From positions 57,760 to 121,759 of the forward strand of contig NZ_PGTB01000003.1 in assembly GCF_002786325.1 (NCBI RefSeq): DNA of 64,000 nucleotides. Direction: 5' to 3'. Below are positions 58,995 through 64,000 of the stretch, piece by piece (within the stretch, counting starts at the first letter, position 1; each line of letters begins with the position of its first letter). This stretch comes from Pseudooceanicola lipolyticus. GTDB taxonomy: Bacteria; Pseudomonadota; Alphaproteobacteria; Rhodobacterales; Rhodobacteraceae. The translations under genes were made by a program, and so were the position numbers. The notes under the pieces were generated by a model that did not search any database, was not told the DNA's origin, and was given only the letters and a program-made list of their open reading frames with translations.

Positions 58995-59217
58995 AGGCAG
59001 TTTGAGTATACTTTGCTTTGACTAGGCCCCAATGCTGCAAGTGCTATGTGATTGAATAAGAACGGGCCATTGTCGTGACCTGTACGCAGCGAACGACGCA
59101 GTGCTCAAAACGATCTCAGAGTGAGCCGGACACCGATGATATCGCGATGCAATTTCGCGCGGTTGACAATCGTGTCCACGACTGATCCCAAGGCAATCCG
59201 TATTGGGCGGCCCGGCG

Positions 59218-60522
59218 CTACTTACCCCGCAAATTCATGCGAAACGTTTTCTCGATACGGCTCACATCAGAATGCTCAACACCCGCCCGTTCAGCGAACT
59301 CGTGCCACTGCGCGACCGCGCCCAGGATTTCCTCAATAGCTTGGTTCGCCCTGTTGGATTTCAGCCCCACGTTCGAAGCAAAAACCATGAGGTCGCCATG
59401 AGTGAAATCGTTTCGCTTTCCAGCTAGGCTCATTTGATGGTCGCGCGTCCATGAGCCAGAAGGATTGTAGGAATAGGCCACGTCATAGGCTGGGAACAGT
59501 CGCCAAGTGCCGGACCGGCCCATGAGGAAGGAGATGTTCTTGACGTGGTCATCTTGGTTGCGAGCGACAACGTTGAAGACAGCGCGCTTGTATTGTTGCT
59601 CCACCACATCCATTCCGAGCCCAAGATCCCTAATCGTCATGATGGCCTGCTCGTAGGAATAAGAGGCCGGGTCATTGAAGTCGAAATGCTGTATCGCGCC
59701 GAGCGATTGCATGTGGACCTTGCGCCCTCGTTCGTCCCGGTCGAACCGACGCGTCATGAAATGGCTTCGTCCGCCTTCATGGTGAAGCCTGCATTCCGAC
59801 ATGTCGATGCCCGCCGCCGTCGCCATCAGGTAATATGCGTACTCGATTTTTCCGAAGCCTTGGGGATCGGCTAGCTCCTTATCTCGATTGTTGGACACGC
59901 CGTCGAACTTCAAGAGCCAGTGCTCGTATCCCTCGTCGACTTTGACTTGGCCTGACCTGAACTCCCCGGTGTCTCGGTTCCAGGCAAGCACCGCCTTCGC
60001 GCGCGCGCCACCCGCCGAAGTCCCGACGCTCAAAATATCTTCGAGCGCCTCTGCGTCGTCCTCGCCTCCGAGCCTGCCGGCAAGGTTCTCGCGCTCGCTT
60101 AAGACCCTGTTGGCCAGATCCACCAACTGAGCCACTTCCAGCTTTTTGGACCGGGTCGCTTTACGGACCGTTGGCTCGAATTCCAGTGCCCCGATTCCGC
60201 GGTTGCCGATGTAGCAAAGCCGATCCACTGGGCTGAACCGGCCCGCGCTTCGCCCCGTTTCTGCAAGCCACGCATCGATCAACCGGTTCCCGAACTTGTC
60301 CGGCAACGCGTCGGCCAACATGCCGGGTAACCCTTTGAACGTTTCCTTCGGAAGGGCGGGAAACTCGTAGGGTGCTTCCCGAACTGGCATCTTCAGGGGC
60401 GCGACCTCAATACCCGCGCCCACAAAGGCCGGATCGTATTGAAAGATGCCGAGTGCGCGTGCTTCATCCCAACTTACGGCACCGATGCGCCGACCCCACA
60501 ATATTATGCTCGCATCAGTCAT
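59218..60522 (-). CDS. hipA: HipA-type Ser/Thr kinase toxin
   Basis: A 434-aa kinase. N-terminal HipA_N domain with FKGLPGMLADALPDKFGNRLIDAWL; ILSVGTSAGGARAKAVLAWN is the Gly-rich loop; HWLLKFDG holds the ATP Lys; catalytic NQDDHVKNISF and metal-binding PAYDVAYSY; STR-like MSLAGKRNDFTHGD near the end. The full set suggests an active toxin that phosphorylates a translation component. Its start overlaps hipB by 8 bases. Confidence 0.92.
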   Translation of the reverse strand: MTDASIILWGRRIGAVSWDEARALGIFQYDPAFVGAGIEVAPLKMPVREAPYEFPALPKETFKGLPGMLADALPDKFGNRLIDAWLAETGRSAGRFSPVDRLCYIGNRGIGALEFEPTVRKATRSKKLEVAQLVDLANRVLSERENLAGRLGGEDDAEALEDILSVGTSAGGARAKAVLAWNRDTGEFRSGQVKVDEGYEHWLLKFDGVSNNRDKELADPQGFGKIEYAYYLMATAAGIDMSECRLHHEGGRSHFMTRRFDRDERGRKVHMQSLGAIQHFDFNDPASYSYEQAIMTIRDLGLGMDVVEQQYKRAVFNVVARNQDDHVKNISFLMGRSGTWRLFPAYDVAYSYNPSGSWTRDHQMSLAGKRNDFTHGDLMVFASNVGLKSNRANQAIEEILGAVAQWHEFAERAGVEHSDVSRIEKTFRMNLRGK

Positions 60523-60853
60523 CTACGTCGTCACCCCAGGTCCATGATGATTTTTTGGGTTGTTCCGATGCAGGACTCGCTCTCCTGCGTTCCTTCCCCT
60601 TCTGTGAGACGCGTTCAATTGGCCTGATGTCTCCCTCTGGTAACACAGAGAGTATCGCATGCTCCAAATCGAGCGCAGCGGCGACGCGAAGAAAGGTGTC
60701 CAGTGTGGAAGGATCCCCAGCCTCAAGGCGACGCAGGGTGCGGACTCCGATGCCCGCCTTCTCGGCGAGGTCAGTTTGGGTTACGTTGCGCGCGAGGCGC
60801 AGACGCGCAAGACGCTGCCCGATTTCATGTTCGATTTGTTGTGACGTCGCCAT
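60515..60853 (-). CDS. hipB: HipB-type XRE antitoxin
   Basis: A 112-aa DNA-binding protein. HTH: IGQRLARLRLARNVTQTDLAEKAGIGVRTLRRLEAGDPSTLDTFLRVAAALDLEHAI. The C-terminal 40 residues are basic, then acidic (SSWTWGDDVDD), perhaps the kinase-binding part. ATG 60853 is used; an upstream TTG in frame has no site. It should repress the promoter upstream and neutralise HipA. Confidence 0.9.
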   Translation of the reverse strand: MATSQQIEHEIGQRLARLRLARNVTQTDLAEKAGIGVRTLRRLEAGDPSTLDTFLRVAAALDLEHAILSVLPEGDIRPIERVSQKGKERRRASPASEQPKKSSWTWGDDVDD

Positions 60854-60911
60854 TGCTTCTCTAAAGGCCAAACGTTGCCGATTAAGCTAGTTAACTCGCC
60901 ATAGTCGGTCA

Positions 60912-60941
60912 CATATGGCCCTTTGTAGGTTAATTTGTCAA
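60912..60941 (-). promoter_or_regulatory. hipBA promoter
   Basis: Perfect -35 TTGACA (60941-60936 on the - strand), 18-base spacer, -10 CATATG (60917-60912). GGCC-containing repeats (CATATGGCC at 60912, AGTGGCC at 60951, CATACGGCC at 60990, spaced about 37-41) overlap it and are candidate HipB sites. Confidence 0.55.
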
Positions 60942-61221
60942 CAGGTCTCAAGTGGCCTCTTGTGGCGCAAGATCGTCATCAAGCGGCCGCATACGGCCTT
61001 TTAATCACGATTTCCGATTTCGCACTGGTGAGTTGTTGGGGAATGGACCCAAGCGAACCCGAGGTCCCTCCGGCGGAAGCCGCGAACCGCATCGAACCTG
61101 CAACGAGGTGCTGCCAGCTCATTTAGGCAAACTCCGCATGCCCATAGCAGGAGTGATGGCAGCACCGGAAGCCCCGAATTCATTGCGTCAACGCCTCACG
61201 GTAGTTCAGAAGCCCATTGCA

Positions 61222-61271
61222 CCCAACTTATCCGTTGTGTACTTGGCCACAACATAAAAGTTGGGTATATT
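61222..61271 (+). promoter_or_regulatory. Symmetric promoter-operator of the ImmA/IrrE gene
   Basis: Nested perfect dyad: CCCAACTT (61222-61229), GTTGTG (61234-61239), CACAAC (61248-61253), AAGTTGGG (61258-61265). Inside it lies a promoter, TTGGCC (61243-61248), 17-base spacer, TATATT (61266-61271). Transcription would begin around 61278, at the gene start. Confidence 0.75.
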
Positions 61272-61276
61272 GAGGC

Positions 61277-62599
61277 ATGACCATGAACGGAATCACCCTG
61301 AACGAAAAGGAAGCACGGGAAGCGCGCGCGCGGATTTCTCGTCTCTCCGAGGCACTTCACTCGGAGCACGCTATGGAGCCGGTCGTGGCCGGCCTGCCGC
61401 CTGAGGTGGTTTCTCAAGTCTCGCGAATGATGAAGGCCGAACGCGAGCGCCTGACCCGAGCAGTCGAGGCTTATGAAGTGGCCAAGGAAACACAAAAGCC
61501 CACAGCACTAAAGGCCCTTGTAAACCAAGAGCCAGGTTTGATGCTGATCGTCGCTAGGATAGCCAACGGTTACTCCCAGAAAGACCTGGCTTGGCGCCTC
61601 GGAGTGAAAGAACAGCAGGTCCAGCGTTGGGAAGCTGAGCGATACGCCCAGATCAGTCTCAAGAATTATAACCGTGTCGCGGCGCTGCTCGGTGTTCGCC
61701 TGACTGCCGACATGCCCGACCAACCTGCCTTCCGTGGGCTGGACAAAGTGATTGACGGGGTTTCGAAATCGGAAATCAAGAAAATCCTCAAGCATGGACG
61801 CGAGAACGGCTGGTTCGCCGAAGACTTCACTGAGGCTGAGCTTCGCCGCTACATCGCCGAGAACCGGATCGACTTCGGAAGCCCGGGGCTTCTCCGAACT
61901 GGCCTCAACGTTGTGGATCACACCGAAGACGTGCTGCTCCATGCTTGGCGCGCCAGGGTCACAGCGAGGGCGCGCGAGGCTTTCGCAGGCGTCGAGGACA
62001 TTCATGAGCCGCTTGAACTCAAGTGGATGCCCGAACTGGTCCGTCTGAGCAATGATCCCCGCGGACCGCTCCGGGCAGTGGAAGTGCTCGCCATTCGTGG
62101 AATCGTCTTGATTGTGGAGCCACAGATCCCCGGCCTCAAGATCGATGGCGCGGCGTTCATCGTGGATGGGAGACCGGTCATCGGAATGACCGTCAGGACC
62201 GACACGGTGGACAACTTCTGGTTCACGCTGATGCATGAACTTGCCCACGTCACTCTTCACTTCTCCACCGGTCTGGCCGTAGGCTTCTACGATCAGACCG
62301 ACCAAGAGACATCGGTCGATGAACAGGAGGAGGAGGCCAACCGCTTCGCCTCAAACTTGCTTATCCCAGAAGAACGCTGGCGGCGCTCTACCGCCCGTAT
62401 CGCGAAGTCGGCTGCGGTCATCGAGCGCTTCGCCAATGAGCTAGGCATCCATCCGGCGATTGTGTTCGGGCGGATACGCAAGGAACGGGGCGAGTGGTCC
62501 CTGTTCGCAAACAAGATCGGGAGGAACACCGTAAGGAAACTGTTTGTGGGTGAAGCCCAGAAAGGAAAGAGTGATGCTCCCATACTACCCGGCTCTTAG
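61277..62599 (+). CDS. XRE-ImmA/IrrE metalloprotease regulator
   Basis: A 440-aa protein. N-terminal helices, then an XRE HTH (IANGYSQKDLAWRLGVKEQQVQRWEAERYAQISLKNYNRVAALLGV, near 95-140), a long middle, and the zinc protease site LMHELAHVTLHF (near 317) with EANRFASNLLIP as the third-ligand region. Proteins of this kind pair with a toxin or regulator and cleave a repressor. The predicted start of transcription suggests a leaderless message at ATG 61277; ATG 61283 has GAGG 7 bases upstream. It overlaps the beta-family gene by 26 bases. Confidence 0.9.
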   Translation: MTMNGITLNEKEAREARARISRLSEALHSEHAMEPVVAGLPPEVVSQVSRMMKAERERLTRAVEAYEVAKETQKPTALKALVNQEPGLMLIVARIANGYSQKDLAWRLGVKEQQVQRWEAERYAQISLKNYNRVAALLGVRLTADMPDQPAFRGLDKVIDGVSKSEIKKILKHGRENGWFAEDFTEAELRRYIAENRIDFGSPGLLRTGLNVVDHTEDVLLHAWRARVTARAREAFAGVEDIHEPLELKWMPELVRLSNDPRGPLRAVEVLAIRGIVLIVEPQIPGLKIDGAAFIVDGRPVIGMTVRTDTVDNFWFTLMHELAHVTLHFSTGLAVGFYDQTDQETSVDEQEEEANRFASNLLIPEERWRRSTARIAKSAAVIERFANELGIHPAIVFGRIRKERGEWSLFANKIGRNTVRKLFVGEAQKGKSDAPILPGS

Positions 62600-63665
62600 G
62601 GCTAAGCCCGGTGAGTTCGCTGCCTGCGGTAGGCTGGCCGCCCGTTATCAGGGACACGTGTGCCCTCGCTTCGTGGTGCCGCCTCCTACCGAGTCAGACC
62701 CCGAAAAGGGGCGCGTGCCAACGCTGGACGAGATCGCCTACATGATGGGGGAGCGCCTCGGAAAGAGCTGGCCCCACCGGCGTGCGTTTCTTGACCCGCA
62801 ACTGGCCGCGGCGGCCCTGGGCGACGAGGGTGTGGCGACGCTCTTCCGCATCGCCACGGCGGTAAACTCCCGCCTGCTTCCCGTTCTGACTGTTGCCGAT
62901 CTGAGCAACCCGGCCCGGCAGGGCCTTATTCGGGGCGGCGACGTGCGGGCAGGCATCTACATGGACTTCGAGGAAGTTGATCCCGCTGCCCTGGTCAAGG
63001 CGGTGGAAAAGGCGGGCGTCCGGCCGGAACAGTGTGTCCTCTTCGTAGACTTCACCGGGGCGCCCCTGGGCGCTGACTTCGCGCCCGCCATCGGCGAAAT
63101 CTTCGATCAACTGGACGGCGCGGCGCGGTGGAGCAAAATCGTCTACCAAGCGTCAGCGTACCCGGACAAGCTGCCGGTCGGAGCTAACGAGCGCACGTTG
63201 GTCGCAAGGGCGGAGTGGACCACTTTCTTGGCGGCTCTCAAAGAGACTGGTGTCCAACCAAATCGACTGGCCTACGGCGACTTCGGCGCGGATTGCGGGC
63301 GAATGGTGTTCCCGAAGGGTAAGGGCGGTGGACGACCGAGGCCGCACCTTCGCTACACCGGTAAGACCCACACCTTGGTGATCAGGGGCAGCGACTCGGG
63401 AGCCTTCACGCCGACGATGCGCGAAGTCTGCAGGCAGATCGTCGAGAGCAAGGAGTACTGCGGCAGAGGCTTCTCCCCCGCAGACGACCGGATCTGGCGC
63501 AACGCGAAGGGGCTGACAGAAACCTGCGGCGACGCGACTGGCTGGCGGGAATTGAACACCGCGCATCACCTGGTCAGGGTTGTTAGGGACCTGGGTGCCA
63601 TGTCGGGCATCGAGTTCGAAGAGGATGCTGTCGCTGAGTACTCGGAGCAAGAAAGTTTGTTTTAG
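62574..63665 (+). CDS. Beta family protein, possible effector of the pair
   Basis: A 363-aa soluble protein resembling the 'beta family' (phage T4 beta protein-like): MLPYYPALRAKPGEFAACGRL at the start, LLPVLTVADLSN, QCVLFVDFTGAPL, RLAYGDFGAD, then KTHTLVIRGSD and REVCRQIVESKEYCGRGFSPADDRIW at the end. Known only as a protein class; no activity established. AAGGA precedes ATG 62574, which lies inside the protease gene, so both are made together. That arrangement looks like a toxin/regulator pair. Confidence 0.8.
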   Translation: MLPYYPALRAKPGEFAACGRLAARYQGHVCPRFVVPPPTESDPEKGRVPTLDEIAYMMGERLGKSWPHRRAFLDPQLAAAALGDEGVATLFRIATAVNSRLLPVLTVADLSNPARQGLIRGGDVRAGIYMDFEEVDPAALVKAVEKAGVRPEQCVLFVDFTGAPLGADFAPAIGEIFDQLDGAARWSKIVYQASAYPDKLPVGANERTLVARAEWTTFLAALKETGVQPNRLAYGDFGADCGRMVFPKGKGGGRPRPHLRYTGKTHTLVIRGSDSGAFTPTMREVCRQIVESKEYCGRGFSPADDRIWRNAKGLTETCGDATGWRELNTAHHLVRVVRDLGAMSGIEFEEDAVAEYSEQESLF

Positions 63666-63771
63666 AGTTCGACCACGAAAATTACCTAGTCACGGATCAC
63701 TGTTCCGTTTGGGAAGCTGCTTCTGCCTCTCGCTACGGGCGTCCGGTCTTTACTATTTTGAGTGAGGAAAA

Positions 63772-63923
63772 ATGCATCTTTCACGGATTCTGATTGAGAA
63801 TTTCCGGAACTTTTCAAAACTAGACGTAGCCCTCGATGGAAACGTTGTTGTGGTTGGCGAAAACAAGGTCGGCAAAAGCAACCTGATGCATGCCCTCCGG
63901 TTGCTGTTTGATCCCTCTCTGCC
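63772..63923 (+). pseudogene. OLD/GajA-like ATPase gene, front only, cut by IS
   Basis: GAGGAAAA stands directly before the ATG. MHLSRILIENFRNFSKLDVAL ... VVVVGENKVGKSNLMHALRLLFDPSLPD is the N-terminal part of an OLD-family (Gabija GajA-like) AAA ATPase with Walker A GENKVGKSN. After PSLPD the sequence leaves the family at the proposed IS end. Catalytic Toprim parts are outside or lost. Confidence 0.8.
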
Positions 63924-64000
63924 TGACCTGCCCCCCGCGAAATCCCTCATCATGATGTAGAGTCTGCCCAACCTTGAAGGAGCAGACGAATGCGAAAGAG
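63924..64000 (+). mobile_element. Probable left end of an IS3-type element (partial)
   Basis: TGACCTGCCCCCC at 63924 looks like an IS3-family terminal repeat. A leader of 66 bases and a new ATG with AAGGAG (63990) follow, as in IS3 orfA. The other end lies beyond the window. Confidence 0.5.
63990..64000 (+). CDS. Start of a gene cut by the window edge, likely IS3 orfA
   Basis: ATG 63990 has AAGGAG 8 bases upstream; only Met-Arg-Lys can be read. Assigned by its place just inside the proposed element end. Confidence 0.4.

Follow-up and report, generated by a model that had tools for sequence, protein, structure and literature searches.

Do the three same-strand genes at the end of a Pseudooceanicola lipolyticus contig form a single inducible antiviral system, and if they do not, which of them belong together? 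The question concerns a stretch of 64,000 nucleotides (NCBI RefSeq assembly GCF_002786325.1, contig NZ_PGTB01000003.1, here C303, positions 57,760 to 121,759), hereafter the window, in which gene B, encoding an XRE helix-turn-helix (HTH) domain fused to an ImmA/IrrE protease, is followed by gene C, encoding a beta family protein, and by the beginning of an OLD-like ATPase gene. The layout described in the initial annotation holds: B and C overlap by 26 bases behind one promoter, the ATPase start codon lies 106 bases beyond the end of C, and hipBA adjoins. Its reading of the three genes as one system is not supported, the ATPase being a GajA with a GajB of its own; two systems meet here, namely a Gabija system that is independent of B–C and broken here, and the B–C pair, which is indeed a conserved operon of defence type. 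We regard this pair as an A-less, self-regulated relative of PD-lambda-2 and not as PD-lambda-2 itself, since the HigB-like first gene of that system (gene A) is absent.

The two proteins were characterized with domain models, defence-system models and structure prediction. B carries an HTH_3 domain (residues 93-143) and a Peptidase_M78 domain (residues 289-389), and its best PADLOC match is PD-Lambda-2_B (E 5.4e-69, covering model positions 155-398 of 402 only), with weaker matches to CapP (4.3e-14) and to the best RmrA model (7.3e-14) through the protease domain. The HExxH residues H320, E321 and H324, together with E351, are invariant in 42 aligned sequences, and the catalytic residues are likewise unchanged in all 13 A-less rows of B alignment A4. 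The AlphaFold model of B has a mean predicted local distance difference test score of 83.1, and a search for a hydrophobic peak in the protein found none. C matches PF14350 (Beta_protein, E 4e-48) and PD-Lambda-2_C (2e-22). As the initial annotation had proposed, we turned to structure prediction for the beta protein, and AlphaFold predicts a triosephosphate isomerase (TIM) barrel with invariant polar residues. The sole close fold match among the BFVD viral models is A0A5J6TRS2, an uncharacterised protein of Gordonia phage Powerball (E 3.6e-18, template modelling score 0.78). In the paper collection searched, neither PF14350 nor DUF6932 gave a hit, against five for PD-lambda-2.

These matches lend no support to the RosmerTA-like identity tentatively suggested for the pair. 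RosmerTA also combines an HTH and an ImmA protease in one protein beside a partner gene (PMC10440598), but the RmrA match of B is far weaker than that to PD-Lambda-2_B and has its best stretch in the shared protease domain, and for the partner C the sole hits at E up to 1 are PD-Lambda-2_C models, the presence of RmrT models in the library being unconfirmed.

To place the pair among its relatives, species genomes were searched with B alignment A1, and the best 80 of at least 529 confirmed relatives were retained as loci (L numbers below). Beta follows B in 79 of these 80 loci, some C genes being split or cut by contig ends, and the pairing is not chance. The association also holds from the other side, as the initial annotation had anticipated: in PF14350 surveys (open reading frames below 320 amino acids and the window itself excluded, and genome G085, drawn in two surveys, counted once), an ImmA/IrrE-type protease gene lies directly 5' of 23 of the 31 full-length beta genes. 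With plasmid and survey loci included and without duplicates or broken genes, the set came to 101 B proteins, sorted by the gene preceding them, namely HigB (15), a DUF6932-type gene (57) or neither (29, termed A-less), Pfam having confirmed DUF6932 in two members and HigB in two, and profiles grown from three seeds each having assigned the remainder. The window falls in the last class. Six-frame pieces of its positions 59000-61500 gave no hit to the HigB profile with E as high as 1 allowed (control 1.3e-29), and the best upstream scores for DUF6932 and sce7726 are 1-2 bits (DUF6932 1.3; controls 1e-29 or better). For sce7726, no match was found in the 6 kb beyond C across the contig join or in any of the 28 other A-less loci.

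Neighbourhoods differ between the classes. When families recurring within 3 kb are counted, 14 of 15 HigB loci carry HigB, and the 57 DUF6932 loci carry DUF6932 in 53 cases and sce7726 in 51; their other recurrent groups (19 and 16 loci) look like these same genes read in overlapping frames. In the 28 A-less loci the top recurrent family is a Gabija-like helicase (5 loci), followed by a family in 4, and nothing beyond B–C is strongly conserved. The DUF6932 loci (L109-L160 and others) form a module of their own, in which DUF6932, XRE-ImmA/IrrE and beta genes are followed by a convergent sce7726 gene, and range from Bacteroidota to Chloroflexota. A GS...DxD stretch in 54 of 63 DUF6932 rows resembles that of nucleotidyltransferases, and one member matches the PADLOC candidate PDC-M63A (3.9e-8). 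A DUF6932-B module with its beta gene cut short lies on an Acinetobacter pittii plasmid (L085:3294-5201), followed by an IS30-family gene and a blaNDM-1 region.

Phylogenies of both proteins support the A-less loci as a lineage. The B tree, a quick tree with support from the SH-aLRT test only, leaves out duplicates (L056, L057, L062, L069, L070, L077, L093, L048, L049), the window's own copies (L001, L002) and broken B genes (L095, L161). HigB rows form one clade (support 100), and A-less rows one clade of 28 that includes the window (96), with L084 alone outside it. The A-less clade joins a set of DUF6932 rows with 84% support, its nearest sister being L110, a long-branch DUF6932 row. The C tree likewise unites 27 A-less rows (99), with HigB and DUF6932 rows not forming single clades and long branches meeting in two places. 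We infer that A was probably lost once, from a DUF6932-type ancestor, a tree by itself being unable to separate gain from loss. The A-less clade, in which B and C have stayed together, reaches from alphaproteobacteria and betaproteobacteria to a genome bin of the Acidimicrobiales. Between A-less and DUF6932 B proteins, mean identity reaches 43% in the HTH and 43% in the protease, vs 18% in the N-terminal 80 residues and 17% in the middle part, and we read the two divergent parts as candidate partner-specific regions.

Conserved sequence upstream of B suggests how the pair might be controlled. The 64 kb window has no more than two CAAC-N6-GTTG sites, both just 5' of B, where the promoter also stands (Table 1). 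Since the ATG follows TATATT after only five bases, the B–C message is probably leaderless, and a palindrome filling the -35/-10 spacer fits self-repression, so that B probably represses its own promoter, a role suggested by the position of the palindrome and its co-occurrence with B. Between positions -900 and +330 relative to the B frame as called, CAAC-N6-GTTG was found in 27 of 29 A-less and 36 of 57 DUF6932 loci, and in none of 15 HigB loci. Its usual place among DUF6932 loci is 458-495 bases 5' of B, just before the DUF6932 start, with a shorter distance in seven loci whose B frame begins further upstream. Four A-less loci have it downstream of the called B start, which had been set too early. 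A looser CAAC-N4-8-GTTG within 120 bases of the called start occurs in 23 of 29 A-less, 0 of 57 DUF6932 and 0 of 15 HigB loci, against a background of 1-2% of shuffled 240-base stretches. By its position, then, the palindrome heads A-less and DUF6932 operons alike as a putative operator.

RosmerTA and Gabija apart, the closest known systems are PD-lambda-2 and gop-beta-cII. Like PD-lambda-2, the pair places a beta gene behind an XRE-ImmA/IrrE gene in one operon, and the PADLOC models for both proteins match. It differs not only in lacking A but also in its HTH, which averages 17% identity to that of the HigB class, and in its operator palindrome, which was not found in the 15 HigB loci examined. 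In Escherichia coli, PD-lambda-2 is reported to act by abortive infection; its HigB-like A neutralises a B that is toxic alone, and C is required against lambda-vir (Vassallo et al. 2022, PMC9519451). The second system is gop-beta-cII of satellite phage P4, in which gop is toxic without beta and the three genes protect against lambda and P1 (Rousset et al. 2022, PMC9122126). P4 beta belongs to the same Pfam family (E 4.3e-56), but in P4 the place of the XRE-protease is taken by Gop, which is small with a hydrophobic N-terminus, and cII is convergent with beta, whereas the window has no Gop-like gene before beta and a same-strand gajA after C. P4 cII (L196:1746-2540) carries an sce7726-family annotation, and its orientation towards beta matches that of the sce7726 gene in the DUF6932 modules. 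The position of Gop before beta may be compared with a further beta layout, comprising a small membrane-type protein, a short standalone ImmA/IrrE protease and beta (L032, L033, L035, L038, L175, L176, L187, L190, L191 and others).

With a mechanism drawn from these relatives, we tentatively favour, at a little short of an even chance, the reading that B–C is a two-gene relative of PD-lambda-2 without A, serving as a minimal abortive-infection module that regulates itself. B would bind the palindrome between -35 and -10 and repress its own leaderless message, and would at the same time be a potentially toxic protease. C, through its conserved barrel pocket, would restrain B, or would sense a phage-made change and then license it. 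Released B would cleave a target, perhaps itself, self-cleavage lifting the repression, and the infected cell would stop before phage release. Cleavage of XRE-type repressors by ImmA-type proteases has precedents (PMC2701414, PMC10440598).

Several points weigh against this proposal. In E. coli PD-lambda-2, C was not required to neutralise B (PMC9519451), and a role for C as a check on B is therefore an extrapolation. A-less B may simply not be toxic, and toxicity may not carry over between classes, given how far its N-terminal and middle parts have diverged from one class to another. That B reads the operator is suggested by position and co-occurrence. The 80 loci, as the best of at least 529, are biased towards near kin. 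Finally, a six-frame piece beyond gajA scores 10 bits with the DUF6932 profile (E 0.003, in a tiny set), which we take as noise; it lies antisense in gajA.

A broader evolutionary possibility, to which we give rather less credence, is that two proteins, the ImmA/IrrE protease and the beta TIM barrel, suffice as an immune core, to which many lineages add different first partners (HigB, DUF6932 or a small membrane protein). Beta would then act as the hub and detect infection, either as an enzyme or as a barrel that binds a ligand, and the A-less clade would be the minimal self-repressing form, with one polypeptide as repressor, switch and killer.

Somewhat less probable again is a role outside immunity, with B–C as a regulator of stress or plasmid maintenance. 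Self-repression by B would then be lifted by DNA damage, in the manner of IrrE-DdrO or ImmA-ImmR, while C would be a TIM barrel of metabolic type sensing a host signal. This sits uneasily with the kinship of B and C to parts of a tested defence system, PD-lambda-2, with the presence of the beta family in P4 gop-beta-cII, and with the Gabija-like helicase ranking first among recurrent neighbours (5 of 28 A-less loci). We consider it improbable that the pair is instead a degenerate PD-lambda-2 remnant, its A lost and B–C decaying as cargo without function. Individual loci do show decay: C is in two frames in L051 and B in two frames in L095, and Paracoccus alcaliphilus (L084:4001-5260) has B alone, lacking both A and C, with HQLGH replacing HExxH, which we regard as a decayed or regulator-only copy. 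The lineage as a whole argues otherwise, B and C having been kept together across alphaproteobacteria, betaproteobacteria and the Acidimicrobiales bin, with catalytic residues invariant in the 13 A-less rows and the operator geometry maintained.

The ATPase gene proved to be AAA_15/GajA-like, in line with the initial annotation, and broken by a repeated element. The end of the window is the end of contig C303, and its last 71 bases recur identically in six other contigs of the genome and therefore mark the end of a repeated element, which we read as an insertion sequence, presumably of IS3 type. The GajA model is matched in two pieces, C303:121531-121686 (positions 1-52) and C303:77-1732 (positions 50-595), and TGCC flanks the break on both sides. 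The remainder of gajA, with an OLD-like TOPRIM domain, and the adjoining gajB, encoding 593 amino acids with UvrD domains, lie outside the window at the start of the same contig (C303:77-3509), followed by ScpB, a recombinase and RepC. With its parts at opposite contig ends, the gene is interrupted on a circular-looking replicon. Most simply, a circular replicon received a single recent insertion in gajA and was opened by the assembler at the repeat; C303 is apparently a plasmid, circularity being deduced from this arrangement. Gabija calls for an uninterrupted gajA, and here the gene is interrupted at 63924. Any likeness to Gabija belongs to this ATPase and its downstream UvrD-like helicase and not to the B–C pair.

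Comparison of plasmids suggests that the B–C and Gabija modules are exchangeable. GajA and GajB are about 96% identical in protein to a GajA-helicase pair on a Phaeobacter plasmid, and B and C are absent from the 16 kb seen around that pair. Conversely, hipBA-B-C is present on three marine plasmids (Roseovarius, Sulfitobacter and Pseudosulfitobacter), whose HipA, B and C proteins share 91-95% identity with those of the window, and their slot after B–C holds a second, distant, convergent ATPase(TOPRIM)-UvrD pair (L047:10611-14803; its helicase is split in L049), with a similar GajA2-type gene downstream in L095, where B is broken. The neighbouring GajA families are unlike (about 27% identity over 173 residues) and occur in both orientations. 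The refuting case named in the initial annotation, an OLD gene never beside the pair in relatives, is nearly realised. Flavimaricola marinus (L094) has B, C, GajA and GajB uninterrupted and co-directional, which makes the order in the window not unique, but this is 1 of 28 other A-less loci, and elsewhere such neighbours are rare and of varying orientation and family. Within 7 kb of B, a Gabija-like pair occurs in 5 of 28 A-less loci (window excluded), 2 of 57 DUF6932 loci and 0 of 15 HigB loci (A-less 5/28 vs others 2/72, Fisher p 0.017, ignoring kinship and uneven flanks; many stretches are shorter than 7 kb per side, and L095, which was left out because B is broken there, would raise the A-less count by one). 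Least probable of all is that B, C and the ATPase form one inducible system, or that Gabija works only with the pair: the L094 order, the enrichment and L095 point that way, but GajA has its own GajB, the same GajAB stands without B–C in the 16 kb seen of the Phaeobacter plasmid, neighbouring GajA genes vary in family and orientation, and 23 of 28 A-less loci show no Gabija-like pair, many of their stretches being under 6 kb or ending with the contig.

The hipBA genes are probably passengers. HipA is also present in L045, L047-L049 and L095, and was not found in L036, L037, L040 or L094; L092 (Mameliella), with 236 bases upstream only, is uninformative.

Table 1. Coordinates of the B–C pair, its putative control elements and adjoining features in the window
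Feature	Position	Strand	Basis or remark
Gene B	61277..62599	+	XRE helix-turn-helix fused to ImmA/IrrE (Peptidase_M78), 440 amino acids
Gene C	62574..63665	+	Beta protein PF14350, 363 amino acids, predicted TIM barrel
Zinc-protease motif HELAH (H320 E321 H324)	62234..62248	+	Alignment of 42 sequences
Putative operator 1, upstream CAAC-N6-GTTG palindrome CAACTTATCCGTTG	61224..61237	.	Conserved in close relatives
Putative operator 2, downstream palindrome CAACATAAAAGTTG	61250..61263	.	Inside 17-base -35/-10 spacer
-35-like hexamer TTGGCC	61243..61248	+	Sequence; TTGACC or TTGACA in several relatives
-10-like hexamer TATATT	61266..61271	+	Sequence; ATG five bases downstream
hipBA toxin-antitoxin genes	59218..60871	-	Divergent neighbour of B
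gajA start, first ~50 codons	63772..63923	+	Cut by insertion; Gabija, separate from B–C pair
Repeated-element end (TGACCTGCCCCCC...)	63924..64000	.	Read as insertion sequence

The second and third genes of PD-lambda-2 thus occur also as a two-gene unit with a conserved putative operator of its own, and the parts of PD-lambda-2 are therefore separable. We find this two-gene core more interesting than the three-gene form. Its predicted TIM barrel provides a structural handle on beta, a family found in P4 and in several defence-type operons, and a natural system without A lets one ask whether an antidote to B is required and what part beta plays.
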